Origin: Bacteroidales bacterium
Lineage (GTDB): Bacteria > Bacteroidota > Bacteroidia > Bacteroidales > F082
DNA: 63,830 nucleotides
NCBI GenBank assembly: GCA_030683155.1
Contig: JAUXMV010000096.1
Span: forward strand, 1 to 63,830
Direction of reading: 5' to 3'
A program made the translations under genes and the position numbers. A model generated the notes under the pieces. That model made no database searches. It was not told the DNA's origin and saw only the letters and a program-made list of their open reading frames with translations. Within the stretch, counting starts at the first letter, position 1, and every line of letters starts with the position of its first letter. This document shows positions 11,028-24,911 of this stretch, in pieces.

Positions 11028-13556
11028 TTAAGCAGCGAACCGCTCTAAATTGATGTAATCCTTAATGTAAACAGGAATCACTTCCCTGTACTTGCTGGCA
11101 ACTGCTTTGAATTGTGAAATGGTTAGCGTTGGATGTGTTTGCAAGGTCTGAAAATCTTTGGTTTCAATGATTTTCCGGACGTCCTGGTCAACGATGTACG
11201 CTTTAAAAAAGTACTTCAATGCTCTTAAATTAACATCTTCCTCTGGTGGATAGATAGAGATAAACTTGTCAAATTCTTCTTCCAGCAATTCGTCTTTTGA
11301 CTTGAACTTTGGAATGATGCCAAAAATCTTTTCAACGAGCTCACGAATGGAAACCTTTCTGTCAATCTTAGCTGCTTTCCTGATTTTCTCAAGGTTAAAG
11401 TATTCTTCCGGCTTATCAAAAATCTCCTGTTGAATATGACTTACCACATGTTCCCAGTTTCCTAATTCGACATTTTTCTTGATGATGTCATCCATCATAA
11501 TCCGGTTTTCAAACTTTCTGAAAAGCTCTCTGTCAATTCGCATACCTTCCGGACCAATTGGTTCTTCAACCAGACTCAATAAAGGGTCAAGTTGGTATGT
11601 AGTGTATTTGTCAATATCAACGCCGCCACCACCGCCTTCACCGTTTCCTTTCTTCGGTTGGGGTAGTTTTAGTTTTTCATCGTAGTCGAATTTTTCTTCG
11701 AAATACTCGCAGTTGGCAAAAAAGTCGAACAACTTGAAAAATTCCTTATCATGGCGAATTATTTCTTCTTCGTTCAACTCATTTTTGAATTTATATTCAA
11801 AAGTATTCCTGCGCGTACCTCTCCCTTTAATTTGAACAAAATCAGTAGGGCTAAAAATGGGTCGCATCATGCAGATGTTCAACAAATCGGGGCAATCGTA
11901 ACCTGTTGTCATCATGCCAACCGTAACGCAAACCCTTGTTTTACAGGATTTATAACCCTCAAGCCAGGTTGTTTTACCGCTTAAATTGTTGTTTGTAAAG
12001 TTGATGGTCATTTGCTGGGCATCACCAACTTGTGAAGTTACCTGTACCGCAAAATCAGAATTATACTTAGCAGGGAAAAGTTGGTCTGCAAATTCATTCA
12101 ATTGTTCTGTCAGCTTGCGGGCATGATTTTGACTTACGGCGAAAATGATGCTTTTGCCAATCTCATTGGTAATGGGGTCACGCAAAGCGTTTTCCAGAAA
12201 GGTCTGGCAAAAAATACGATTCGTTTTTTCAGAGAAGAACTTCTTTTCAAAATCACGGGATACGAAAGTTTCAGTATCTTCTCCTTCTTCTGTTGGTATA
12301 GTCACTGCATAACCCTTATCAGATAGCAACTGGGTAGTGATTTCAGTTCTGGCATCTAAAACTCTTGGATTTTTAAGAAAGCCATCTTTTACGCCATCAA
12401 CCAAAGAATACCGAAAAGTAGGGTCGCCACCTTCACAGCCAAAGGTTGAGTAAGTGTCGCGCAACATTCTGCGTTCAATTTCTCTGGGGTCATTTTCTTT
12501 TACCTTATCTGGGTCAACGCCTTTTAAATAGTCTTTCGGGGTAGCGGTTAGGCCCAATTTGTAACCGTGAAAATATTCAAAAACCGCCCGTGCATTTCCG
12601 GAAATTGAACGGTGTGCTTCATCAGAAATCAGAAGGTCGAAGTCAGTCGGCGAAAAATCATAGCGGTATTTGTCATTGTGCATCAGCGATTGAATGGTCG
12701 TAACCAAAATATCCGCTTTTCTCCAGTCGCTTTTATGTTCTTTGAAAATGAAAGTCGTATAATCGGGCTTTAAGTATTCTGTAAATGCTTTCCAGGCTTG
12801 GTCTTCCAATTCCAGACGGTCAACCAAAAACAAAACTCGTCTTGCGTTTTGGGTTCTCAGAAATAATCTGATTACAGCTGCAGAAGTCAGGGTTTTACCC
12901 GTTCCGGTTGCCATTTCGAAAAGAAATCTGTCTTTTCCTTCGGCAACAGCAGCTTGCAAAGCATGAATTGCATTTAGTTGGTAATGTCTTAAAAACCTTA
13001 GTCCGTTTGACCAGATAAAATCCTTACTTGCTTCAATGCTTCCTTTCCATTCAGGTCTTTCGGCCTAGTCTGGCATTTGTACTTTTACGATGTAGTCAGC
13101 AGTTGCTTCTTCATCAGCGAGTGAATCTCTGTCGGGATTCCAGTTTTTGATTGCTCCGATTTCTTCGGGTGAAGGAAATTTGTAGATCGGTTTTGGATTT
13201 CCTTTTGTCGTGTCCCAGAAATAATGGACAATTCCATTGGAAAGAATCACATATCTCGCACCAACTGTCTTGGCATATTTTCTGGCCTGTTCTTTTGCAA
13301 CAAGCGGATGAAGGCTTTCCTTTTTTGCTTCAAGCACACAAATTGGTTTATTGTCACTGTCGACGAGTAAAAAGTCTAAAGAACCATTCCTGGTTTTCTC
13401 ATAGTCATTGCCCCATGCGTCAATTTCTTTTTGTGTAATCTTCACATGATTTTCAAGCAGAATGCTTGCTTTTCCTTCCTCATTGTCAAAGAATCTCCAT
13501 CCTGCCTCTGTCAGCAGTTGGTTTATTTTAATTCTTGCATGAGCTTCATTTTTCAT
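11028..13556 (-). pseudogene. type I restriction endonuclease subunit R (hsdR), interrupted by an in-frame TAG
   Basis: Both halves are in the same frame: 13556 to 13065 and onward to 11028, about 842 codons with one TAG at 13065-13067 after KVQMPD. Reading continues AERPEWKGSIEASKDF without a frame break. The N-terminal part has the nuclease core (SLDFLLVDSDNKPICVLEAKKES). The rest has Walker A (MATGTGKT), DEAH box (SDEAHRS) and motif VI (GRGTRR). All motifs are intact, so the only visible lesion is the nonsense codon. Unless it is suppressed or a sequencing error, restriction would be lost while methylation by the fused M-S protein continues. A separate translation restart at 12959 would lack the nuclease. 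Confidence 0.88.
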
Positions 13557-14210: not shown

Positions 14211-14837
14211 CTAAAAATCCTCAATTGTCAATCCAGTATTTCCATGCAAAACTAAAGCGTCTCTATTTTCCATAAATAATGTTGCTGTTAACATGTCTTT
14301 CAAATAGAAATCATCAATACATTCTGTATATTTATCTTTCATCATGATTAATGCTTGACCTGTTGTACTTCCTTCAACTAAGGCTTCAATACCACATACA
14401 GCACATTCGATAAATGCATCTTCAGCTCCAAAGTACTTTTGAATTGTTACATTTTCTTTATATCCAATAAAACACAATGCACCATTTGCACACAATTCTT
14501 TTCCCAAATTCTTTCCTGCTTTACATGCATAACAATAAGCAAATGAATTTTTAAGAGAGTCTATATTAAGATCGATTGATATAAATGGATTATTTCCATT
14601 TTTAAGTAATTCATTTTCTGTGCCATGTGTGTATGACACGAACAGATATGGATTTGAATTAATGGAGTTAGTAATCAATGGAATAGCAACCTCGAACGCT
14701 GCATTTCCTGAAATCTCAATATTTTTAACCTCGAAATCAGAAGAATCAAGCAAACGTACAGTTTCAAATTTACATTTCTCAAAAAAATTCCCCAAACTGG
14801 AGTCGTTTTTATCACAAACAAGCAATGCGTTAATCAT
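14211..14837 (-). CDS. predicted caspase-like (clan CD/CHAT-type) cysteine protease, last gene of the operon
   Basis: I know no named family for this 208-residue protein. It shows the two-part pattern of caspase-fold proteases. A hydrophobic strand ends in SYTHG (His about 71). A second strand ends in YCYACKAG (Cys about 102 and 105), followed by a helix and GALCFIGY, as in CHAT and gingipain-like domains. The small residue context around both differs from classic GHG/CxG motifs, so the catalytic pair is predicted only. It overlaps the receiver gene by 8 bases. Most likely it is the effector released by the upstream kinase-receiver pair. ATG at 14837 is preferred over the TTG three bases before it. 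Confidence 0.55.
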   Translation of the reverse strand: MINALLVCDKNDSSLGNFFEKCKFETVRLLDSSDFEVKNIEISGNAAFEVAIPLITNSINSNPYLFVSYTHGTENELLKNGNNPFISIDLNIDSLKNSFAYCYACKAGKNLGKELCANGALCFIGYKENVTIQKYFGAEDAFIECAVCGIEALVEGSTTGQALIMMKDKYTECIDDFYLKDMLTATLFMENRDALVLHGNTGLTIEDF

Positions 14838-15447
14838 CAAGTTTTTCCTTGTTTCTGGTTAATAAATCAATGGTTAGTTTGGCTAAATTCTTTGAAAAGT
14901 ATTTACCGGTATTAGATTGCATCCTAATTTCATTCAACAATTCATTAAGAGATAGTTGTCTGCCATCAACATTAAGCAAATACGGTTTTTGCTTTTGTTC
15001 ATCAGAATGAGCATTAATCCATTCTTCTAAAGCAATGCTAATATCATTATCAGCATAATTGTAAGCCTCTTTCAACTTCTCGATTATTTCTTCAGTTGAT
15101 GCATTTTTATTTAAAAAGGCGTAAGCTCTGTTGTTTATTAAATCTGCAAAAGACTCTTTGTCTTCATCTACTCCACTCCATATCAAAACGGGAATAAGAA
15201 ATGAAACTTCTCTTATTGATTCTAAAATTTCATGACCACTTGGTGTTCCTGAAGGAAAACCTAGGTCTAACAATACTATTAATCTTTTATCCAGATTATT
15301 CTCGATAAATTCTAATCCATCTTCTTGGTTATAAAAAAACCGAATAGATTCAAAATTCATATTTAGCTCAATCATTAATCCTGAATCAGGATTATTTAAA
15401 GCCTTATCATCGTCAATAATTACAATTGTTGAATCAAGTTTATCCAT
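14830..15447 (-). CDS. receiver-domain (CheY-like) protein with helical C-terminal region
   Basis: The 205-residue protein has a REC domain at residues 6-125: acidic pocket IIDDDKA (12-14), phospho-acceptor Asp61 in VLLDLGFP, Ser91 in LIWSG and Lys114 in AFLNKNAS, all canonical positions. The remaining 80 residues are helical and contain no DNA-binding motif, so it is not an obvious transcription factor. It is 2 bases from the kinase gene and overlaps the caspase-like gene. It should take phosphate from the double-GHKL kinase and pass a signal by protein contact, perhaps controlling the protease. Confidence 0.82.
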   Translation of the reverse strand: MDKLDSTIVIIDDDKALNNPDSGLMIELNMNFESIRFFYNQEDGLEFIENNLDKRLIVLLDLGFPSGTPSGHEILESIREVSFLIPVLIWSGVDEDKESFADLINNRAYAFLNKNASTEEIIEKLKEAYNYADNDISIALEEWINAHSDEQKQKPYLLNVDGRQLSLNELLNEIRMQSNTGKYFSKNLAKLTIDLLTRNKEKLDD

Positions 15448-15449
15448 AA

Positions 15450-17576
15450 CTATTGTTTAAATGGTAATTCAATTTTAAATGTTGCTCCAGTAGGTTTAAA
15501 TTCATTTTCCACAACTTGGATTGTTCCTTTTAAAGCTTCAAGCCTTGATTTAATAATAAACAAACCTAACCCTGCACCTCCTTGCTCAGAAGTAGTAGTA
15601 ACAAAAACATCAAAAATTCGATACTTATTATCCTCAGGGATTCCATAACCATTGTCAGAAAATAATATTACAAATTTATCATTTTCAACTATGGCACTAC
15701 ATCTAATGAGTTTTTCTCCAGAATTATTTCCTACTGCTTTAAATGAATTACTAATAAGATTATCAAAAATATCTTCAAATGACTTTAGATTATAATTGAT
15801 GAGAAGGTCACGATTAATTTCCAAAGAAGCCTTAATCCCACGTTTTTCAAATTCATCAATATATATCTTATTAAAAATTCTTTCGAGAGTCTCTTTGACA
15901 TTTATTTCTTCAAATTTTTGGTCGTCTTTGGCATACTTCAATAAGAAGTCAACTGCATCGCCCAAATGATTCATTTCTGTAAAAACATTTAATCCCATTT
16001 TCTTGTAACTGTCATTAAATCGAGGGTCAGGAATCCATTTGTGAATAAATTCAGCATCTCTCTTAATTTTCCCTATTGATGTTCGGGTAATATGGGAAAG
16101 CATACCAGCATAGGTTTGTAGCGACACTAGGCTAAAAAATAGATTTTCTTGCTGATGCTTTTCTTTCTCTAATTTTTGATAATCTGCTAAAGAACGTTGA
16201 ACAGTTGCTTGGGTTTTTGCAAGTTCTTTTTCAACTCTAATTATTGTTTGCTGTACTTCCGGTGACTCAGCTTTATCTTTTACTAAGTTTAGTTGTTTGC
16301 GTATATTGCCTATTTCATCCTTCGCAACTTTAAACTCTGATTTTGTTTTTTCTTTTTCTGTGTTTTTTTTCTTCTTTAAGTATGACTCTATTTTACTGAG
16401 TTGTTCTATTGTGAAATCCTTCAATTCTTTCCATGCATCATTCTCTACAAAGCTTTGACGATTAGTAGCATCAATAATATTTGGATTATGTTCCTCTGAG
16501 ATTTCAATCCATCCTAATAAATCACGAGTACTCAGTTTATCAAAGAATCCCGAATAACGCCTTTTGTCAATGCCAAGTAAATCTTTTTGCTCATTTTGAG
16601 AAGCTGCATATTCTGCAAATGGTGTTGCAATTATTCCATCACGATACACTTTTACTCCATCAATTTCAGCTCCAACAAAAGACTTCTTAAATTTATTTTT
16701 TGCTTGTTGGTCAAAATAGTACAATGTCATACCAACATATCCACATTTTCGCTCTGGCACATTTATTTTTTTTAATTCTCCATTTTGAACGATCAATATC
16801 TCTTGAGAATTCTTTTCAGTGTCAAAACCTAATTCAACTTTAAGTGTAGCTAACTCAATAGCTGCTGTTTTTACTTTTTGTTCTTTAAAATCAGGATATT
16901 CAGCAGCATCAACAACTATATTGAAGGGATATTTTAATTTATTACTGGGGGATATGAGTTTTGATAATTCTTTAATTGAGCGTATAATATCATTTTTAGT
17001 CCAAACATCACTTACCATTGAAATTTCAAGCATCGTTCCGGAACTATCCTTTTCAATAGATTCTGTCCAATATTTGTTTTCAATATCTGTGAAGAATTTA
17101 TTTTCACCAGAAAAATCAAGAGTTAATTGTTTATTTTCCTCGTCTGCATAGTATGACCAGTCGGTTTCCAAACAAAGAAGTTCATCTGAGCCTTTTTTGG
17201 TAGTTTTAAGTAACAATTTAGCACCAAGTTTATCAACTGCAAATCTACCAACACCTTTTTTACCAACAACTTTTCTATTATATGGAGGTGGAGATTGTTT
17301 TGCTTTTCGTTTACTGCTCGTACCAATTACCATCCATTTATCACGAACATCCTCAAAACTCATCCCAATCCCATCATCAATAATCAAAATCTTACTCCTA
17401 TCAGAGCGTGGATTTATATCTTCGAATTTAACTAATACATTTTCGGCATTGGCATCATAACAATTCTTTACCAACTCAAAGAGTGCTGTTATTCTATCGG
17501 TAATTAATTCTCTACCGAGCAAACGATAAGCACTAACGTCAAATTTGAATTTTAAAGTTTTTATTTGCTCTGACAT
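15450..17576 (-). CDS. double-GHKL protein: MORC/Hsp90-like ATPase fused to histidine-kinase core
   Basis: The 708-residue protein carries two GHKL ATP sites. The N-terminal site is Hsp90/MutL/MORC-like: N-box ELVKNCYDA (34-42), DDGIGM (67-72) and GKKGVGRFA (105-113). It is followed by a transducer-like region (to about 370) and a long Lys/Glu coiled coil (about 385-480). A dimerisation-helix-like segment follows with His495 (MLSHITRT). The C-terminal histidine-kinase ATPase has N-box DNLISNS (605-611), DNGYGIP (641-647) and GGAGLGL (666-672). There is no membrane segment, so the sensor is cytoplasmic. It overlaps the methyltransferase gene by 16 bases. ParaMORC-type ATPases are known from R-M loci; the addition of a kinase and receiver is unusual. 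It probably senses DNA state or phage components. Confidence 0.85.
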   Translation of the reverse strand: MSEQIKTLKFKFDVSAYRLLGRELITDRITALFELVKNCYDANAENVLVKFEDINPRSDRSKILIIDDGIGMSFEDVRDKWMVIGTSSKRKAKQSPPPYNRKVVGKKGVGRFAVDKLGAKLLLKTTKKGSDELLCLETDWSYYADEENKQLTLDFSGENKFFTDIENKYWTESIEKDSSGTMLEISMVSDVWTKNDIIRSIKELSKLISPSNKLKYPFNIVVDAAEYPDFKEQKVKTAAIELATLKVELGFDTEKNSQEILIVQNGELKKINVPERKCGYVGMTLYYFDQQAKNKFKKSFVGAEIDGVKVYRDGIIATPFAEYAASQNEQKDLLGIDKRRYSGFFDKLSTRDLLGWIEISEEHNPNIIDATNRQSFVENDAWKELKDFTIEQLSKIESYLKKKKNTEKEKTKSEFKVAKDEIGNIRKQLNLVKDKAESPEVQQTIIRVEKELAKTQATVQRSLADYQKLEKEKHQQENLFFSLVSLQTYAGMLSHITRTSIGKIKRDAEFIHKWIPDPRFNDSYKKMGLNVFTEMNHLGDAVDFLLKYAKDDQKFEEINVKETLERIFNKIYIDEFEKRGIKASLEINRDLLINYNLKSFEDIFDNLISNSFKAVGNNSGEKLIRCSAIVENDKFVILFSDNGYGIPEDNKYRIFDVFVTTTSEQGGAGLGLFIIKSRLEALKGTIQVVENEFKPTGATFKIELPFKQ

Positions 17577-18631
17577 TCGTAGTTCATGATTTGTTTGAAA
17601 ATTGCCTCTGCTAAAAGAGGGGGAACTGCATTACCAATTTGTTGTTGAATGTGCATTAATGAACCCACAAAAATAAAATCATCTGGAAAACTTTGAATTC
17701 GAGCAGCTTCTCTAACTGATAATCCCCTGTCTTGCTCAGGATGTATCAACATGTTTTTTCTATAATTTGAAATAACAATTGATGGAGCTTCAGGATTTAA
17801 TCGTTTGTATATTCCACTATGACAATTATTCTTGTCTTTATAATTTTTCATTAAATGGTCTGGTATAGCTTTCCAATTTTGACCCGGCTTAATATGTCTA
17901 TAGCGTTCTATTACCAAATCATTATTTCTAGAAACATAATTTTGTAATGCCTTTTGATTGCCATTTCGCAATCGTTTTGCGTATTCTGAAGGTGAACTTT
18001 TATAAGGTAACTCTTCTTCAACCTGTCCATTTGATAAAAGAGGAAGGTCTCCAATTGCATCTATAACCGATACTTTTTTTTCTTGCTTTTCAGGAAACTC
18101 AAAGCAGATGCCTTCTTTATTACCAACTAAAAAAAATCTATTTCGGTCTTGAGGAACACCATAATCAGATGCTGTTAAAACTTGGTGATTTACAGTATAA
18201 CCTAACTCTTCAAAGTTTTGCCTTATTTGCTTAATTGTGGCACCTTTATTGAAGCTTACTATACCTTCTACATTCTCAAACAGAAACCATTTCGGTTTTA
18301 ATTCTTCAATGAATCGGATAAACTCCTGATAAAGTTTATTATTTTCATTTTTTTCATTCCTTGTTTTTGAATTAGATAGAGAGAATCCTTGACATGGAGG
18401 ACCTCCAAAAACAATTAAGGGATTTGTAATATTAAGTGAGTGTGGATTTATATTTGAAATGTTCTCTGTAATAACTTTAGAATCAGGGTGATTTGTCTTA
18501 AATGTTTTTGCGGCATTTGGGTCTTTCTCGATTGCAATAGGAATAATAATTCCAGCGCTTATTGCTCCTAGACTTAGTCCTCCAGCACCCGAAAAAATGT
18601 CTACTCCTATATGTTTTTGTTCAAAATCCAT
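17561..18631 (-). CDS. DNA (cytosine-5-)-methyltransferase (Dcm-type), first gene of the operon
   Basis: It is a complete C5-cytosine methyltransferase of 356 residues. The SAM-binding motif I is DIFSGAGGLSLG. Catalytic Cys80 lies in GGPPCQGFS, motif VI is ENVEG, and motif VIII is QDRNRFFLVG. Motifs IX-X are RGLSVREAARIQSFPDDF and IGNAVPP. The target-recognition region (about 185-280) is short, so the target site is probably simple. No restriction nuclease accompanies it. Instead the operon continues with a sensor kinase, a receiver and a caspase-like protein, so methylation may mark self DNA for a signalling system. ATG at 18631 was chosen over an upstream TTG at 18640. Confidence 0.93.
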   Translation of the reverse strand: MDFEQKHIGVDIFSGAGGLSLGAISAGIIIPIAIEKDPNAAKTFKTNHPDSKVITENISNINPHSLNITNPLIVFGGPPCQGFSLSNSKTRNEKNENNKLYQEFIRFIEELKPKWFLFENVEGIVSFNKGATIKQIRQNFEELGYTVNHQVLTASDYGVPQDRNRFFLVGNKEGICFEFPEKQEKKVSVIDAIGDLPLLSNGQVEEELPYKSSPSEYAKRLRNGNQKALQNYVSRNNDLVIERYRHIKPGQNWKAIPDHLMKNYKDKNNCHSGIYKRLNPEAPSIVISNYRKNMLIHPEQDRGLSVREAARIQSFPDDFIFVGSLMHIQQQIGNAVPPLLAEAIFKQIMNYECQSK

Positions 18632-18693
18632 AACTAGCAAAAATAGAATAATTATTTAAGACATTGAAGTGGTTTTTATCCTTTTTTTTGTTT

Positions 18694-19273: not shown

Positions 19274-21043
19274 CTAATCACTTATTGCTTCAATTTCTTC
19301 GTCAAGTTTTACTATAGTTTCAGGACTTTCTATTGACCTGTCACTCCACCATCGTTCAGAACAATATTCAGCCAGAATCTTAGTACGAGCTTTTAAATCA
19401 ATTTTGTTAAATCCTTTATTTGTGTCAATTGAGGAACCGAGTTTCTTTGTCATTGAAAACAGGCTTCTTCCGTAGCCATCAATTTTATCAATTGCATTTT
19501 TATTCTGAACGCTTGAATTTAGACCTTTTTCTAAAACGGTCAAGTTTCCGATATTATGCTCATAATCAATAAAGTCCTCTTTGTTGACAAATCCCAATGA
19601 ATTTGGTTCAAAAGTTGGAGTTTGTGAAAGTATGTGCTCAATATTTGGGGTTTTACTTACTATATCTTTCATTTCTGATATGCCAAATTCCTTGCAATTA
19701 ATATGCTCACAGTAAGTAATGAAAATGTGATTTAAAGCACGGTTTCCATAAATTCCTCTTGATAAGTTTGATTGAAATTCTTCTTTAGGCATCCAGCGAT
19801 TATTAAACCAAACAAGCCAATTTTCTATATCATTAGCATTTTTATGGTCTATATCAAAAACGAGTCTTGAAATGTCAGCTTTTGGGTCAGTTCCTCGTGT
19901 TTTATATACACGGACTTCAATAAGTTCAACTAAATCAAAGAAATTAAATTTCTCTCTTCCTTTCCCTGCAAGACCTTTATCAAGCAAGTCAAGTTTTTCC
20001 AATTTTATAATTAATGGATAAAGGGTAGCTGATAAGTTTAAGACAACAAATAATTTGAAATATTTTGCGTCTGACTTGGCACGTTCAATAACGTTTTTAC
20101 AATTTTGAAAAAACTCTTTTAAGCTAGAAATATATGAATTGATAAATGTTTCAATTTCTTCATAATTGCCATCTGTTATCCCATTTCTATGTTTTGTCAG
20201 TTGGTTTTTTAAATATTGAAGAACATAGTTTGCTGTTGGGTCATAATTCTCATTGCTGTAAGTTACAAAATGATAACGCATCAAATTATCTTCACTGAAA
20301 TCTCTATTTTTTATTAGGTTAATTCCTAACTCTTCTCCAAGATGCTTTATGTCGTCATAAATCTCAAAAATATCACTAAAGTGATCATTTATTGAGTTGT
20401 CGAGTTTCTTGTTTAAGTAACGATTTGAAAAATATATCAAAAGACTTTTTGCTTTTTCCATGTTTGAGAGAGGTTTCCCTCTGTCATTAACTGTTTGAAA
20501 AATTCTTATTGCATCACCTTCTGAATTCTCAACAAACTCCATAACTTCAAGTTTCTCCACTGATTTAAGAAATTTTAATTTGTCGTCAATTTGGTCAACT
20601 TTAAACTTGATTTCTTCAATCGCATCTTTTAAAAATCTCTGACTTTTATTTTGAGGTTCGCCAACTTTGCCTTCAATTAAATCTATAAAAAACTGTTGGT
20701 CTCTGTTTAAAGGCGTTATTCGGTATCTATCGTCCTCTTTCAAATAGAATCTCTCATAATATGAAGCATCTTTTTCCGATAGCTTTTTGATTAAAGAACT
20801 AATTATCAGGGTTGCAGTTGTCGTTCTTTGTTGCCCGTCAACAACATAAAACTTTTCATCATCGTCTGCGGATTTGGATAAAACTATTGTTCCAATATAA
20901 TGGTTAGAGTTTGATTCTATTGATTCAATTATATCGTCAAATAGGTCTCTAATATTTTGAACCTCCCAAGCATATCCTCTTTGATATTTTGGTATTTCAA
21001 GAAATCGCCCATTAAAAAAGTCTTTTATTTTAATACTAGCCAT
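19274..21043 (-). CDS. GmrSD-like DUF262/DUF1524 nuclease (predicted type IV restriction or defence enzyme)
   Basis: The 589-residue protein opens with the DUF262 signature: IPKYQRGYAWE (about residues 17-27) and FYVVDGQQRTTTATLI (about 65-80), a ParB-like NTP-dependent module. The C-terminal third has DUF1524: DIDHKN, then IEHILSQTP and YEHNIGNLTVLEKGLNSSVQNK, the His-Me/HNH-type nuclease with conserved His and Asn. The GmrSD family restricts DNA with glucosylated hydroxymethylcytosine, and BrxU-like relatives have broader range. The modification read by this protein is unknown. It lies 79 bases downstream of the PRTase operon on the same strand and could be co-transcribed. Confidence 0.9.
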   Translation of the reverse strand: MASIKIKDFFNGRFLEIPKYQRGYAWEVQNIRDLFDDIIESIESNSNHYIGTIVLSKSADDDEKFYVVDGQQRTTTATLIISSLIKKLSEKDASYYERFYLKEDDRYRITPLNRDQQFFIDLIEGKVGEPQNKSQRFLKDAIEEIKFKVDQIDDKLKFLKSVEKLEVMEFVENSEGDAIRIFQTVNDRGKPLSNMEKAKSLLIYFSNRYLNKKLDNSINDHFSDIFEIYDDIKHLGEELGINLIKNRDFSEDNLMRYHFVTYSNENYDPTANYVLQYLKNQLTKHRNGITDGNYEEIETFINSYISSLKEFFQNCKNVIERAKSDAKYFKLFVVLNLSATLYPLIIKLEKLDLLDKGLAGKGREKFNFFDLVELIEVRVYKTRGTDPKADISRLVFDIDHKNANDIENWLVWFNNRWMPKEEFQSNLSRGIYGNRALNHIFITYCEHINCKEFGISEMKDIVSKTPNIEHILSQTPTFEPNSLGFVNKEDFIDYEHNIGNLTVLEKGLNSSVQNKNAIDKIDGYGRSLFSMTKKLGSSIDTNKGFNKIDLKARTKILAEYCSERWWSDRSIESPETIVKLDEEIEAISD

Positions 21044-21122: not shown

Positions 21123-22805
21123 TTATGTCTTTATAAATTTACTTACTCGTAAATCTAAACGAGGTGGAACAATTACTTCGTCTGGAATTTGATTAATTAA
21201 TAATACTGGAGTTCTTAAATCAGAACAAAAAGTAACTATTTCCTTAAATTCATCCAAATTAGAGTCTCTGTTCTGTTCTCTATCAGCAATAATACTAACA
21301 ATAAACCAATTTTGAATTTTCTTACCTAAAAGATCCTCAATTTTATTTTTCTTTCTACAAACGGTATCTCCCGTAGCAATTACATCTGTAAATAAAATAA
21401 TATTTTCGACTTTAATGAAATCATTTTTTTTGTACTTTAAATAGTTTACAGACTCTTTATACGTATGATGGTTAGCACCAGCTTTTGATGCGATACAATA
21501 ACTTTTAACATTAGTTCTGATTGATACCTGGCTTGCAATTATTGCTCCCCAGTAATCAACCCCTATAAAAGCATATTTATCTTTTGCATCAGTTTTAAAA
21601 ATATTCTCAATAAACCATATAAATGCTCTATTAGTTATTTGTGACAAAATATTTGAATCACTTAATAGCCTGTTTGTATATATCCAACTTAATGAAACTT
21701 TTGTATCTGAGGTTGCATACCTGTCTAAGGAATAAAGTCCTTCAATTGCAATTCTATTAATTATCTTATCCTGAATGCTTTTACTTATTACAATAGGTGT
21801 CTTTGAAACTTTGGATTCGGTAATAAATTCTGTTTCTTTTTCAGAATTTGACATCACTAAAGAATTACCTTTATCAAGTCTTATCTGACTTTCTGAGTAC
21901 TTCCAATCACCAATTAATGGATTATCAGAATATCCTCTCATTTTAAATTGTAGAGTATAAATCTTAGGCTGCTTTTCTGGTTCAATTTCAACTATTTTAG
22001 CCTCACGTGCAATTTGATTTGGTGTAGAACCAACGCCAGAACCAAACATAGCTGATAGAATGAAATGATTTAATTCATCATAAGAAGTAAAGTCAGGAAT
22101 ATGACCATCTCCAAAAAAATAGATTGTATGTTGCTTTCGACGTATTTTATACAGTCTTTCTACAATATAATAGGCATCTTTCCATTCATGCTTCTCTGCC
22201 CAATCGTTTTCCTCAATATACATTAAAGCTCTATGAAAATGTATCATTGGATAATGTGAAAGGATAGTTAAAATATCTGTATTTGGAACTATATCACTAA
22301 TAAAATCACTAATAATGTTATCTATTTCATCACTTGTTAAACTTCGAGGTTTATTTGAAAAGCCAGTTCCCCATGTCGAATCTAAAGACAAACACCAAAT
22401 ATCTTTTAATTTGTACAATATTGCATAATCATTCTGTTTTACAATATTATTCATTGAGAAATTACAACTAAAACTATTAAATTCCTTACGGGCTTCAATT
22501 CTTCTATCCATAGAATCAAGGCTTTGACTAAAATCGTGATTACCAATACATACGCAAATAGAATCTGTGGTGACATTAAGTTTTTGAGATAGATAAGTCA
22601 AAATTGTTTTTGCATGATCAAAGTTTTGTGTTTTGAATCTATTAACAAAATCTCCTGTTGCAAAGATGTAATCTATTGTTCCAATATTAGAATTGATTAA
22701 TTCAGACAATTCATTCAAATACTCTTTATAGTTTTTTAAACGAAGGTGTTCATTTGTATTGGTAAGATCATCAAGATGAAAATCAGTAATCTGTAATATT
22801 CTCAT
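21123..22805 (-). CDS. calcineurin-like phosphoesterase fused to a phosphoribosyltransferase domain
   Basis: Two enzyme folds share 560 residues. The first 290 residues form a metallophosphoesterase with all signatures: ITDFHLDD, ATGDFVN, GNHDFS, LSHYPM and FGDGHIPD, so two metal ions should be bound. After a linker rich in charged and Ser residues (about 300-350) comes a PRTase-like Rossmann domain. Its PRPP-binding loop IILFTDVIATGDT lies at about 469-481, close to the classic VxxVDDVxxTGxT. PRTases use PRPP or nucleotide-ribose phosphates; MPPs hydrolyse phosphodiesters. Together with the next two genes this suggests nucleotide-based signalling or NAD/nucleotide breakdown. I know of no characterised protein of this layout. 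Confidence 0.8.
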   Translation of the reverse strand: MRILQITDFHLDDLTNTNEHLRLKNYKEYLNELSELINSNIGTIDYIFATGDFVNRFKTQNFDHAKTILTYLSQKLNVTTDSICVCIGNHDFSQSLDSMDRRIEARKEFNSFSCNFSMNNIVKQNDYAILYKLKDIWCLSLDSTWGTGFSNKPRSLTSDEIDNIISDFISDIVPNTDILTILSHYPMIHFHRALMYIEENDWAEKHEWKDAYYIVERLYKIRRKQHTIYFFGDGHIPDFTSYDELNHFILSAMFGSGVGSTPNQIAREAKIVEIEPEKQPKIYTLQFKMRGYSDNPLIGDWKYSESQIRLDKGNSLVMSNSEKETEFITESKVSKTPIVISKSIQDKIINRIAIEGLYSLDRYATSDTKVSLSWIYTNRLLSDSNILSQITNRAFIWFIENIFKTDAKDKYAFIGVDYWGAIIASQVSIRTNVKSYCIASKAGANHHTYKESVNYLKYKKNDFIKVENIILFTDVIATGDTVCRKKNKIEDLLGKKIQNWFIVSIIADREQNRDSNLDEFKEIVTFCSDLRTPVLLINQIPDEVIVPPRLDLRVSKFIKT

Positions 22806-22815
22806 ATTTTATAAA

Positions 22816-23829
22816 TTAAATATTTTCTTCAAATAAAGCAAATTTGGCTCCTTCATTAAGCCCTTTAAGGTCTATCAATGAGGAAAGATTGAAACAATCA
22901 CTAAATGATTCAACAGGAAATAAACTACCTATAACAAGAGCTTTTTCCAATTTACAACCTGTTAGAACGGCATATGCTTGAGCTATTTTAACTTCGGTAC
23001 CTCCAAAAATAAAATCACCAATGTAAATATACTCTTGATATTGTTCCGTCCAAAAAATGTTTTGAAGTTCTTCAATATCAAAAATTTTATTTTTAGGACC
23101 TAAATGATCAATTACATCAATCTCAATTTTATTTAGTAAGCCAATTGCTGCTGCAAAAGGACTTGATCTTAAACTTACCGACAAAAGTTTTATGGTATTT
23201 AAATTTTTATCTTTTGCCAAAGTTTCTTTTAGAAAGCTATTTAATTTGTCCGATAGTTTAATTGATATCCACATAAATGATTTAGGATCAGAAATCAAAT
23301 TGCTTGAATTAAAAACACCATTTGCTGCTATTGGAGTAGAAGGAAGTCGTAAGATTAAGTCATCGTTAAATTTTTCAAAGCAATTATAAACAAATTCTTT
23401 AATAAGATCATTTTCCAATATTTCACAACTTGGGTAAAGTTCTTCAGCATCAAGTGCTTTACGCTTAAGTGAGATAATAAAGGTTTTTTTGTCTGGCTCA
23501 TTAACATTAAAATCGCCTTTGATGAATTCATCTCTCAGTCGGCGAAAACGTATAATTAGATGATTAGAATTCAAGAAGTAGATTGGTCGCTTAATTTCAT
23601 CAATTAAACTAAAAATTGGAGAAAAACCATGATCATCGTTATCTATAATTCCATTACAGTTAATTATTAGAGGAAACCTCTTTTCTTCTTCTCTGTATAT
23701 TGTCGATAATACACCTCCTGTTATAGTATCAAGATTGAAGGAAGTATTTAAACCATTTGTTTCCCAAATTAAGCCTTGAAGGCGACAATATAAAAAATGC
23801 TGATGAATTAATATGCTATTATATATCAT
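22816..23829 (-). CDS. phosphoribosyltransferase-like protein with uncharacterised N-terminal domain
   Basis: Residues about 269-281 of 337 read YIGDFIFGGTEVK, a degenerate PRPP-loop in the same place relative to the C-terminus as in the partner protein. It is followed by a helix and ALVIGSLFP strand typical of the fold. One expected acidic residue of the DD pair is replaced (IGDF), so activity may be altered or lost. The N-terminal 200 residues (LIINCNGIID, FLNSNHLII) look like an alpha/beta domain I cannot name. It is 2 bases from the STAS-GHKL gene and 10 from the phosphoesterase gene, so the three are certainly one operon. Confidence 0.6.
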   Translation of the reverse strand: MIYNSILIHQHFLYCRLQGLIWETNGLNTSFNLDTITGGVLSTIYREEEKRFPLIINCNGIIDNDDHGFSPIFSLIDEIKRPIYFLNSNHLIIRFRRLRDEFIKGDFNVNEPDKKTFIISLKRKALDAEELYPSCEILENDLIKEFVYNCFEKFNDDLILRLPSTPIAANGVFNSSNLISDPKSFMWISIKLSDKLNSFLKETLAKDKNLNTIKLLSVSLRSSPFAAAIGLLNKIEIDVIDHLGPKNKIFDIEELQNIFWTEQYQEYIYIGDFIFGGTEVKIAQAYAVLTGCKLEKALVIGSLFPVESFSDCFNLSSLIDLKGLNEGAKFALFEENI

Positions 23830-23831
23830 GG

Positions 23832-24911
23832 TTAATTATGTATTGGAATTTCAAATACGAAACGAGAACCTCTAATATAATTATCAAATTTTTGCCAATA
23901 ACCGGTTTTTTTATCTTCTAGTTGAATCTTATATTCAATTGGTTCTCCGATCAATTCATTTGGATGTATTACACTTTCAAATATATTATTGTTGTCTACT
24001 GTGCTAAGTACTTGTAACCAATTTGACTTTTGCCAACGAATTTCTGTATCATATGATGAAACAACAAGCCATCCATCATTTGATAAAATGTCTTTATATA
24101 ATATACTTTCTAGATTTAGAATATCATTAAGCGCTAATCTAATTCCGTGTTCATTTGTTTGAATGATACAGCCTAATAGTAAACCTTGAGTGTGATCAAG
24201 TAAGTCTTTATTCTTTAATTCCGGAAAATTATTTTGAAGTGATTTTGGAAATCCAATTCCACTGTCACTGATCGCTACAGTTACTCGTTTTGAGGTCCTT
24301 TGCAATCCAACAAAGACTATTGATTTACCGTGGACTAAAGAATTTACAATTAGTTCGACCGCAGTTTTCGAAACTGTATTTTCTAATTTTATGTCTAGTC
24401 CTTTAAATATTTCACTACATCTTAAATTAAAATTAGGCCTAATTTTAGTTTTTAAATGATTTTTATGAATCACAAATTCTTTTGGATCTAGGCTTTCTCT
24501 GATTACATCAGCATAATATATAATTTTTGTATTTGGATTTGTTTTTTCAGTCAAAATTCCACCAATTCTTTCAGAATCAAATTCAAATACATTTAAATTC
24601 TTTGAGATTTCGACAAATGACACATCTCTTAAGAATCCCAATAAATCTGGTTTCCAGTCAAATATTATTTTTTGTGGTTGTCCAATAAAGCTGGAAATAT
24701 TATGGGCTATTGAAATAAAAGCAGTAAGTCCAGCCATTGATACTTGACCATATGTAAGTTGACTTGCATCCCAGAGAACTTTTGGACTCTCTCCTTTTCT
24801 ATAAGCTGCTCTAAGTTTTGCTAACCTAGGTGCGATATATTTATGCAAACTATTGATACTTGTTAAGGGCCCAATATCTATTTCTATAATTTTATACATG
24901 GTGTTTGTCAT
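23832..24911 (-). CDS. STAS-like domain fused to GHKL (anti-sigma-type) ATPase
   Basis: Residues about 40-115 of 359 (VLWDASQLTYGQVSMAGLTAF, then IIFDWKPDLLGFL) resemble a STAS/anti-anti-sigma fold. Residues about 180-345 are a GHKL ATPase with N-box ELIVNSLVHG (186-195) and G1 box ISDSGIGFP (214-222). There is no membrane helix and no phospho-acceptor His segment, so it is more like SpoIIAB/RsbW-type switch kinases than a sensor histidine kinase. It heads the PRTase operon and probably controls it or senses the trigger. An alternative start is Met5 (24899). No Shine-Dalgarno decides between them. Confidence 0.72.
   Translation of the reverse strand: MTNTMYKIIEIDIGPLTSINSLHKYIAPRLAKLRAAYRKGESPKVLWDASQLTYGQVSMAGLTAFISIAHNISSFIGQPQKIIFDWKPDLLGFLRDVSFVEISKNLNVFEFDSERIGGILTEKTNPNTKIIYYADVIRESLDPKEFVIHKNHLKTKIRPNFNLRCSEIFKGLDIKLENTVSKTAVELIVNSLVHGKSIVFVGLQRTSKRVTVAISDSGIGFPKSLQNNFPELKNKDLLDHTQGLLLGCIIQTNEHGIRLALNDILNLESILYKDILSNDGWLVVSSYDTEIRWQKSNWLQVLSTVDNNNIFESVIHPNELIGEPIEYKIQLEDKKTGYWQKFDNYIRGSRFVFEIPIHN

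Follow-up and report, generated by a model that had tools for sequence, protein, structure and literature searches.

A conserved bacterial operon linking a C5-cytosine methyltransferase, a MORC-like sensor kinase and a receiver to a caspase-fold protein, with a possible role in methylation-licensed defence

Operons that join a C5-cytosine DNA methyltransferase (Dcm), a paraMORC-like kinase and a receiver were reported from computational work in 2021; the trio, named HEF_HK/Response_reg_2, is proposed there to be a signalling system with kinship to the paraMORC proteins (PMC8011034). The stretch analysed here, 63,830 nucleotides (nt) of contig JAUXMV010000096.1 from a Bacteroidales bacterium (GenBank assembly GCA_030683155.1), hereafter the window, carries a cassette of four genes in the order Dcm, sensor kinase, receiver and effector, the last of which encodes a caspase-fold protein. 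The cassette resembles HEF_HK/Response_reg_2, as the available text describes it, in placing a C5 methyltransferase beside a soluble GHKL-type kinase (HATPase_c_3) and a receiver-like protein, and the methyltransferase gene is likewise adjacent in the window. The words caspase, CHAT, peptidase and abortive do not occur in the available text of PMC8011034. An earlier note, made from the sequence alone, had described the whole combination as unfamiliar; because the trio without a caspase was reported in 2021, only the caspase-bearing version appears to be new. The cassette is a real conserved system, a caspase-bearing variant of the two-component systems in which a methyltransferase accompanies a paraMORC kinase.

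Filing the cassette under HEF_HK/Response_reg_2 itself was rejected, since neither PF19191 nor PF19192 was matched. The window kinase has no match to PF19191 at E ≤ 1, and genome G000 has none at 1e-5, a threshold that 7 of 296 genomes pass; the window receiver matches PF00072 and not PF19192, a model run without a positive control. The proteins also differ in size, with kinases of 966 to 1001 amino acids and receivers of 525 to 575 amino acids in seven sampled HEF_HK loci versus 708 and 205 amino acids in the window. No open reading frame with the effector motif and no caspase-like gene was recognised in these seven loci, where the lowest E for the effector profile (0.0095) belonged to a 495-residue open reading frame outside the trio (L150).

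Other described systems share parts of this design. The paraMORC families (Iyer 2008, PMC2292703) are similar in their N-terminal GHKL and S5-like module, methylase neighbours and interchangeable C-terminal outputs, but the outputs named in the available text are restriction-endonuclease-fold, TIR or unknown domains, and neither a receiver nor a caspase is mentioned there. Detocs, a defensive two-component system (PMC11249213), likewise is a phosphorelay-type defence that ends in an enzyme effector, whereas the window operon has a separate caspase-fold effector and includes Dcm and a MORC module. PADLOC-DB 2.0.0 showed no Detocs; whether that database includes a Detocs model was not checked. 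Detocs itself is described as having three genes, with a PNP enzyme as its effector. To our knowledge, the prokaryotic caspase-fold effectors described so far (SAVED-CHAT and the gasdermin-linked caspases) are triggered via cyclic nucleotides, CRISPR complexes or other sensors; in contrast, the input here appears to be a phosphorelay. The caspase-bearing version was not found in the open-access literature, a search that left subscription papers mostly outside, so its absence is no proof of novelty, and no open-access paper combined at least five of the terms defense system, caspase, DNA methyltransferase, GHKL, two-component and MORC.

A scan of genome contigs, seeded with an alignment of the window kinase and two relatives (A1), yielded 357 confirmed kinase relatives, and the locus counts given below rest on the best 80 of these. 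All four genes, with Dcm directly upstream, are found in 73 of the 80 loci, a figure that holds for the closest kinase clade only because the best 80 of 357 relatives were retained. Since this order is conserved, chance association is excluded, and the four genes, which the earlier note had read as one pathway, do form a unit that recurs in other genomes. Three further loci have all four genes in another arrangement or with a late-called start; i.e., Dcm is upstream of a kinase with a late-called start in L024, convergent and downstream in L062, and located after the effector in L090. Locus L046 begins within the kinase gene, and L056 and L079 break off within the effector and the kinase, respectively. 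A decayed cassette in Flavobacterium ichthyis (L092, 6980-7573) has an intact Dcm and a kinase that stops after 197 residues, with the receiver and effector absent, and the same decayed gene set is seen in genome G375 (L010, 4796-5389). Dcm is present in each of the 78 kinase loci where it was observable. The median spacings between consecutive genes are -11, 4 and -4 nt over 75, 78 and 77 junctions, respectively; in the window, Dcm and the kinase overlap by 16 nt, the kinase and receiver are separated by 2 nt, and the receiver and effector overlap by 8 nt. Promoter and terminator scans gave no excess over shuffled sequence.

The hosts of these 80 loci are mostly Bacteroidota, together with Spirochaetota (L041 and L048), Thiomicrorhabdus (L062), Paenibacillus (L089), Lachnospiraceae (L090) and Brevibacillus (L093). 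A Stenotrophomonas plasmid carries the same gene order with a kinase 28% identical to that of the window, and its receiver and effector are missing from the PLSDB gene table. A strongly diverged cassette (L139, 2861-8049 in genome G230) also keeps the order, with a Dcm of 410, a kinase of 849, a receiver of 231 and a caspase-like protein of 240 amino acids. The distribution is sporadic, with a kinase relative at E 1e-30 in 5 of 395 genomes of the phylum. The kinase was the productive query for relatives, and the receiver had no match in plasmids. For the effectors of L084 and L093 and the receiver of L090, the assignment rests on position and motif rather than on a BLAST match at E 0.01; L056, L079 and L092 contributed no effector, and the gap rows in the alignment stem from a receiver reading frame called short in L078. 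Alignment A4 comprises the window and 69 of 77 effectors from the genome scan, and A6 the window and 56 of 77 listed kinases.

The effector is predicted to take a caspase-type alpha/beta fold of the clan CD-like kind. In clan CD, the catalytic His and Cys follow adjacent core strands; in the effector, His71 comes after the strand formed by residues 64 to 69 and Cys105 after that formed by residues 98 to 103. Among the 208 columns, only His71, Gly72, Cys105 and Gly125 are invariant across 79 effectors, and the L139 protein keeps equivalents of all four. The fold comparison and the invariant His/Cys pair thus support the caspase-like effector put forward in the earlier note, which had singled out Cys102 together with Cys105; Cys102 was rejected as the catalytic residue, being Cys in only 4 of 79 effectors, and Cys105 is the predicted catalytic Cys. 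Of the refuting outcomes that the note had named, an unrelated effector fold and a gene order without conservation elsewhere were both checked, and neither was observed. Protease activity is, in our estimate, highly probable.

The effector matches no Pfam family at E ≤ 1, the named peptidase families C14, C25 and CHAT included, and no PADLOC-DB 2.0.0 model at E ≤ 0.1. Three of 70 members of the effector family match PF01364 (Peptidase_C25), at best with E 6.2e-4 and alongside further chance-level families. Single-sequence searches of 395 phylum genomes, plasmids, phages and viral contigs recovered only the effector itself, and the Stenotrophomonas homologue recovered just its own pair of plasmid records, with no match among viral contigs. 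A search of 390 phylum genomes with the effector profile returned the genome that carries the window and two weak rows, one of which (L138) turned out to be the divergent cassette L139, while the other (L137) was discarded as a relative, having one internal stop and unrelated gene surroundings. Against the sequences of solved structures, the profile gave 29 rows (E 0.049 to 0.86), mostly galectin-type lectins and DOA1 but including pieces of caspase-6 and caspase-8 (E 0.27 to 0.73), and these rows were taken as chance level. A viral structure library returned caspase-like viral proteins and nothing informative on function. The Bacillota effectors (L089, L090 and L093) are 300 to 316 amino acids long with an extra C-terminal part; L089 has a weak TPR match (E 0.0034).

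The kinase is soluble, as judged from its composition, and its structure model (predicted local distance difference test score of 79.6) is MORC3-like at the N-terminus and HK853-like at the C-terminus, in agreement with the MORC-like ATPase fused to a histidine-kinase core that had been proposed. MORC3, MORC4 and SMCHD1 span the whole N-terminal module, a GHKL ATPase followed by an S5-like transducer, in which the GHKL motifs are intact: Glu34 is kept in 79 of 81 rows, Asn38, Asp67, Gly69 and Gly71 in 80, and Gly105, Lys107 and Gly110 in all 81. His495 lies within a helix (residues 439 to 514) of the dimerization and histidine phosphotransfer (DHp) domain, which is accompanied by a HATPase_c domain, and faces His260 of HK853 if the alignment is extended without gaps from the aligned ends, residues 484 and 249, respectively. 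On a Deinococcus gobiensis plasmid (L009, 6541-11508), an Eco57I-type (N6-type) methylase, a double-GHKL kinase, a receiver and an HNH protein (PF01844, E 3.8e-10) stand in a row; i.e., a different methylase and a different effector accompany a related kinase.

Asp13 and Asp61 of the receiver are found in 79 of 80 rows, with one gap. The earlier note had called both Asp61 and Lys114 intact; this is correct for Asp61, while position 114 is variable (Lys in 46, Arg in 23, other residues in 10, one gap). Glu141, Trp143, Leu171, Arg175 and Gly181 in the C-terminal part are kept in 74 to 79 of 80 rows. Pfam detected no known DNA-binding or other output domain, and phmmer found no solved structure at 0.001. 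Phosphotransfer from the kinase to the receiver is very likely. Receivers of 304 to 332 amino acids stand beside related kinases in L011 (9339-10253), L012 (9625-10554) and L013 (10162-11160), from three genomes. Their C-terminal region, which carries an RNxxAH motif without variation, looks HEPN-like, as judged by eye only, so that receiver and effector may form a single fused protein in these three loci.

The sensor module is akin to a restriction-enzyme family. Residues 9 to 132 of the kinase match the BbrUII/HgiDII family (NCBIfam NF050001) with E 8.1e-20 and 70.9 bits; identity as a BbrUII-type restriction enzyme was rejected, the cut-off being 550 bits. The two share the GHKL part, but the window kinase lacks the nuclease part and has a kinase core instead. 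At E 1e-30, NF050001 was matched in 12 of 296 phylum genomes, four of them above the cut-off, and the examined flank contains a near full-length C5 methyltransferase in 7 of the 12 loci; among the four above the cut-off, only L096 shows one. In a methyltransferase tree of 69 rows, including 29 background methyltransferases, a 16-row group (support 100/99) unites the 13 cassette Dcms sampled from clade C2 with the methyltransferase neighbours of GHKL proteins from the NF050001 search in L096, L099 and L102, and none of the background sequences falls inside it. The kinase-linked Dcm of a Campylobacter (L008) pairs with the L098 methyltransferase (100/100). M.HgiDII methylates GTCGAC (PMC5867850); this motif is not claimed for the window Dcm. 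Dcm families are concordant with the N-terminal families of the kinases over 75 rows. At a core identity of 0.45 to 0.6, N-terminal identity is 0.58 within a Dcm family (309 pairs) versus 0.48 between families (17 pairs), a difference that was set aside as evidence because it is confounded by descent. In L101, L102, L103 and L105, GHKL proteins from the NF050001 search that differ in their C-terminal output lie next to or near C5 methyltransferases. Pfam assigned Shedu-type SduA_C in L105, Hypoth_Ymh in L101 and L103, and weakly HSDR_N_2 in L098, and the L102 tail is TIR-like by eye only.

The four open reading frames were found on the minus strand where the earlier note had placed them, as were His495, Asp61, His71, Cys102 and Cys105 at the residue numbers it named (Table 1). 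The Dcm reading frame extends from a TTG at 18640, and the ATG-started gene is the one listed.

Table 1. Features of the cassette, in positions of the whole window
Feature	Position	Strand	Evidence
Dcm, C5-cytosine DNA methyltransferase, 356 aa	17561..18631	-	ATG start; PF00145 E 8.5e-76; TIGR00675 above cut-off; clade C1
Sensor kinase, 708 aa	15450..17576	-	PF13589 E 1.7e-23, PF02518 E 3.6e-22; MORC-type ATPase module and histidine-kinase core
MORC-like GHKL and transducer module, kinase residues 11-402	16371..17546	-	
DHp and catalytic domain, kinase residues 484-707	15456..16127	-	
Codon of H495, predicted phosphoacceptor	16092..16094	-	H in 80/81 kinase rows, one gap
Receiver protein, 205 aa	14830..15447	-	PF00072 E 4.4e-8, residues 8-125; no Pfam output domain
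Codon of D61, predicted phosphoryl acceptor	15265..15267	-	D in 79/80 receiver rows, one gap
Conserved C-terminal part of receiver, residues 130-205, putative effector contact	14833..15060	-	Conserved residues in 74-79/80 rows
Effector, 208 aa, caspase-fold (clan CD-like) protein	14211..14837	-	
Codon of H71, predicted catalytic His	14625..14627	-	Invariant in 79/79 effectors, 80/80 with L139
Codon of C105, predicted catalytic Cys	14523..14525	-	Invariant in 79/79 effectors, 80/80 with L139

The gene unit, the folds and the invariant residues are established. A role in defence is probable; that the operon is specifically a methylation-licensed suicide (abortive) defence system has, in our judgement, an even chance of being right, and that it senses unmethylated DNA or the loss of Dcm slightly less than that. 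By homology, Dcm would methylate a cytosine motif and so mark self DNA. The MORC-like ATPase module of the kinase would clamp or scan DNA and be silenced by the cell's own methylation or by Dcm itself, until unmodified phage or plasmid DNA, or Dcm loss, alters its ATPase state. The kinase core would then be switched, autophosphorylate at His495 and pass the phosphoryl group to Asp61 of the receiver, which, probably via its conserved C-terminal part, would turn on the caspase-fold protein through binding or release. The His71/Cys105 protease would cleave a host or phage protein, and infection would end in cell death or dormancy. Such an operon would amount to a restriction-modification system in which a phosphorelay and a protease stand in for the nuclease. 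The gene unit, the effector fold, the MORC3-like and HK853-like halves of the kinase, the phosphorelay residues, the restriction link, the receiver with no known DNA-binding domain, and the constant presence of Dcm, which persists beside the truncated kinase of L092, all argue for this reading.

Several observations weigh against it. No DNA-binding or methyl-reading part was identified. HisKA kinases usually have an acidic residue after the phosphoacceptor His, and the residue after His495 is never acidic (Ala, Ile, Met, Val, Gln or Leu). Lys114 is replaced in 33 of 79 receivers. The window Dcm belongs to clade C1 (13 rows, 100/100), which holds no restriction-enzyme-linked methyltransferase in the sample, so the restriction link of the window rests on the kinase module, and L094, L095 and L097, which are above the restriction-enzyme cut-off, have no Dcm within the flank examined. 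The decayed L092 is a single case, searches of phages and viral contigs gave no relative, and the counts of defence genes near the cassette stand without a control rate.

An addiction module is the likeliest rival, and we consider it unlikely: Dcm would be the antidote, and the kinase, receiver and protease would be lethal once a cell has lost the cassette or the methylation that it confers, so that the cassette maintains itself or its host element, with phage defence as a side effect. Dcm accompanies the death arm wherever it could be seen and survives alone beside the truncated kinase, the distribution is sporadic and the Stenotrophomonas copy is on a plasmid, all of which speaks for addiction. 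However, most loci are on large contigs in surroundings rich in restriction-modification and abortive infection (Abi) genes, and defence fits the same data equally.

Less probable still is a guard of classical restriction, in which the cassette would stand beside a separate nuclease and fire only when restriction is breached or methylation is lost. In 44 of 77 loci, a gene on the same strand and no shorter than 300 nt starts within 250 nt downstream, and these 44 genes include 11 C5 methylases (a count to which L090 contributes the Dcm of its cassette), 6 AAA_5, 4 HNH_2, 2 Vsr, 1 MutH and 1 GIY-YIG; the window cassette itself adjoins a type I restriction-modification locus and a GmrSD-type gene. 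On the other hand, the remaining 33 loci have no such neighbour, and the neighbours fall into several classes with no relation to one another. A regulatory two-component system, in which the kinase reads methylation and the protease cleaves a regulator, changing expression without killing, is improbable: two-component systems are usually regulatory and the trio without a caspase was itself proposed as a signalling system, but the receiver has no known output domain, the surroundings are those of restriction-modification and Abi genes, and no conserved fifth gene that could be a protease substrate adjoins the cassette, since clusters of neighbouring genes extend to no more than 21 of 77 loci.

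In the window, the cassette has type I restriction genes on one side and the GmrSD-type gene on the other. The type I HsdR (11028-13556) appears as two open reading frames, 13065-13556 (HSDR_N) and 11028-12959 (helicase part), and the GmrSD-type restriction protein (19274-21043; PF03235 and PF07510) is directly upstream of the cassette. Three nearly touching genes at 21123-24911, possibly another defence operon, encode a metallophosphoesterase, a 337-residue protein without hits and a GHKL-like protein of 359 residues; the metallophosphoesterase has a weak phosphoribosyltransferase match and matches PDC-S60 (E 1.5e-13, residues 1 to 126) and NF053862 (E 3.2e-11). Among the 44 downstream genes, which were aligned as unrelated genes (A5) solely for individual scanning, further single Pfam matches were AbiH, HD-CE and several without defence meaning.

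A wider and tentative idea, possible but on balance doubtful, is a new class of bacterial immunity, epigenetically gated and apoptosis-like, in which a MORC ATPase tells self from non-self DNA by its methylation and, with no DNA cleavage, drives a His-to-Asp phosphorelay that activates an executioner of the caspase fold. MORC sensors would then serve widely as a platform to which different outputs can be attached (nuclease, TIR-like, HEPN-like, or a relay from a kinase to caspase, HNH or HEPN-like proteins), and MORC, DNA methylation and caspase-like death would go back to one ancestral prokaryotic module. If the proposed mechanism is true, a two-component phosphorelay would control a caspase-fold protease, and a restriction-modification-like system would act via proteolysis, not DNA cleavage. 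The question of what operons of a methyltransferase, a paraMORC kinase and a receiver do gains a concrete output enzyme, testable by point mutation, and the cassette is a small bacterial model in which to ask whether DNA methylation can be read by a MORC ATPase.
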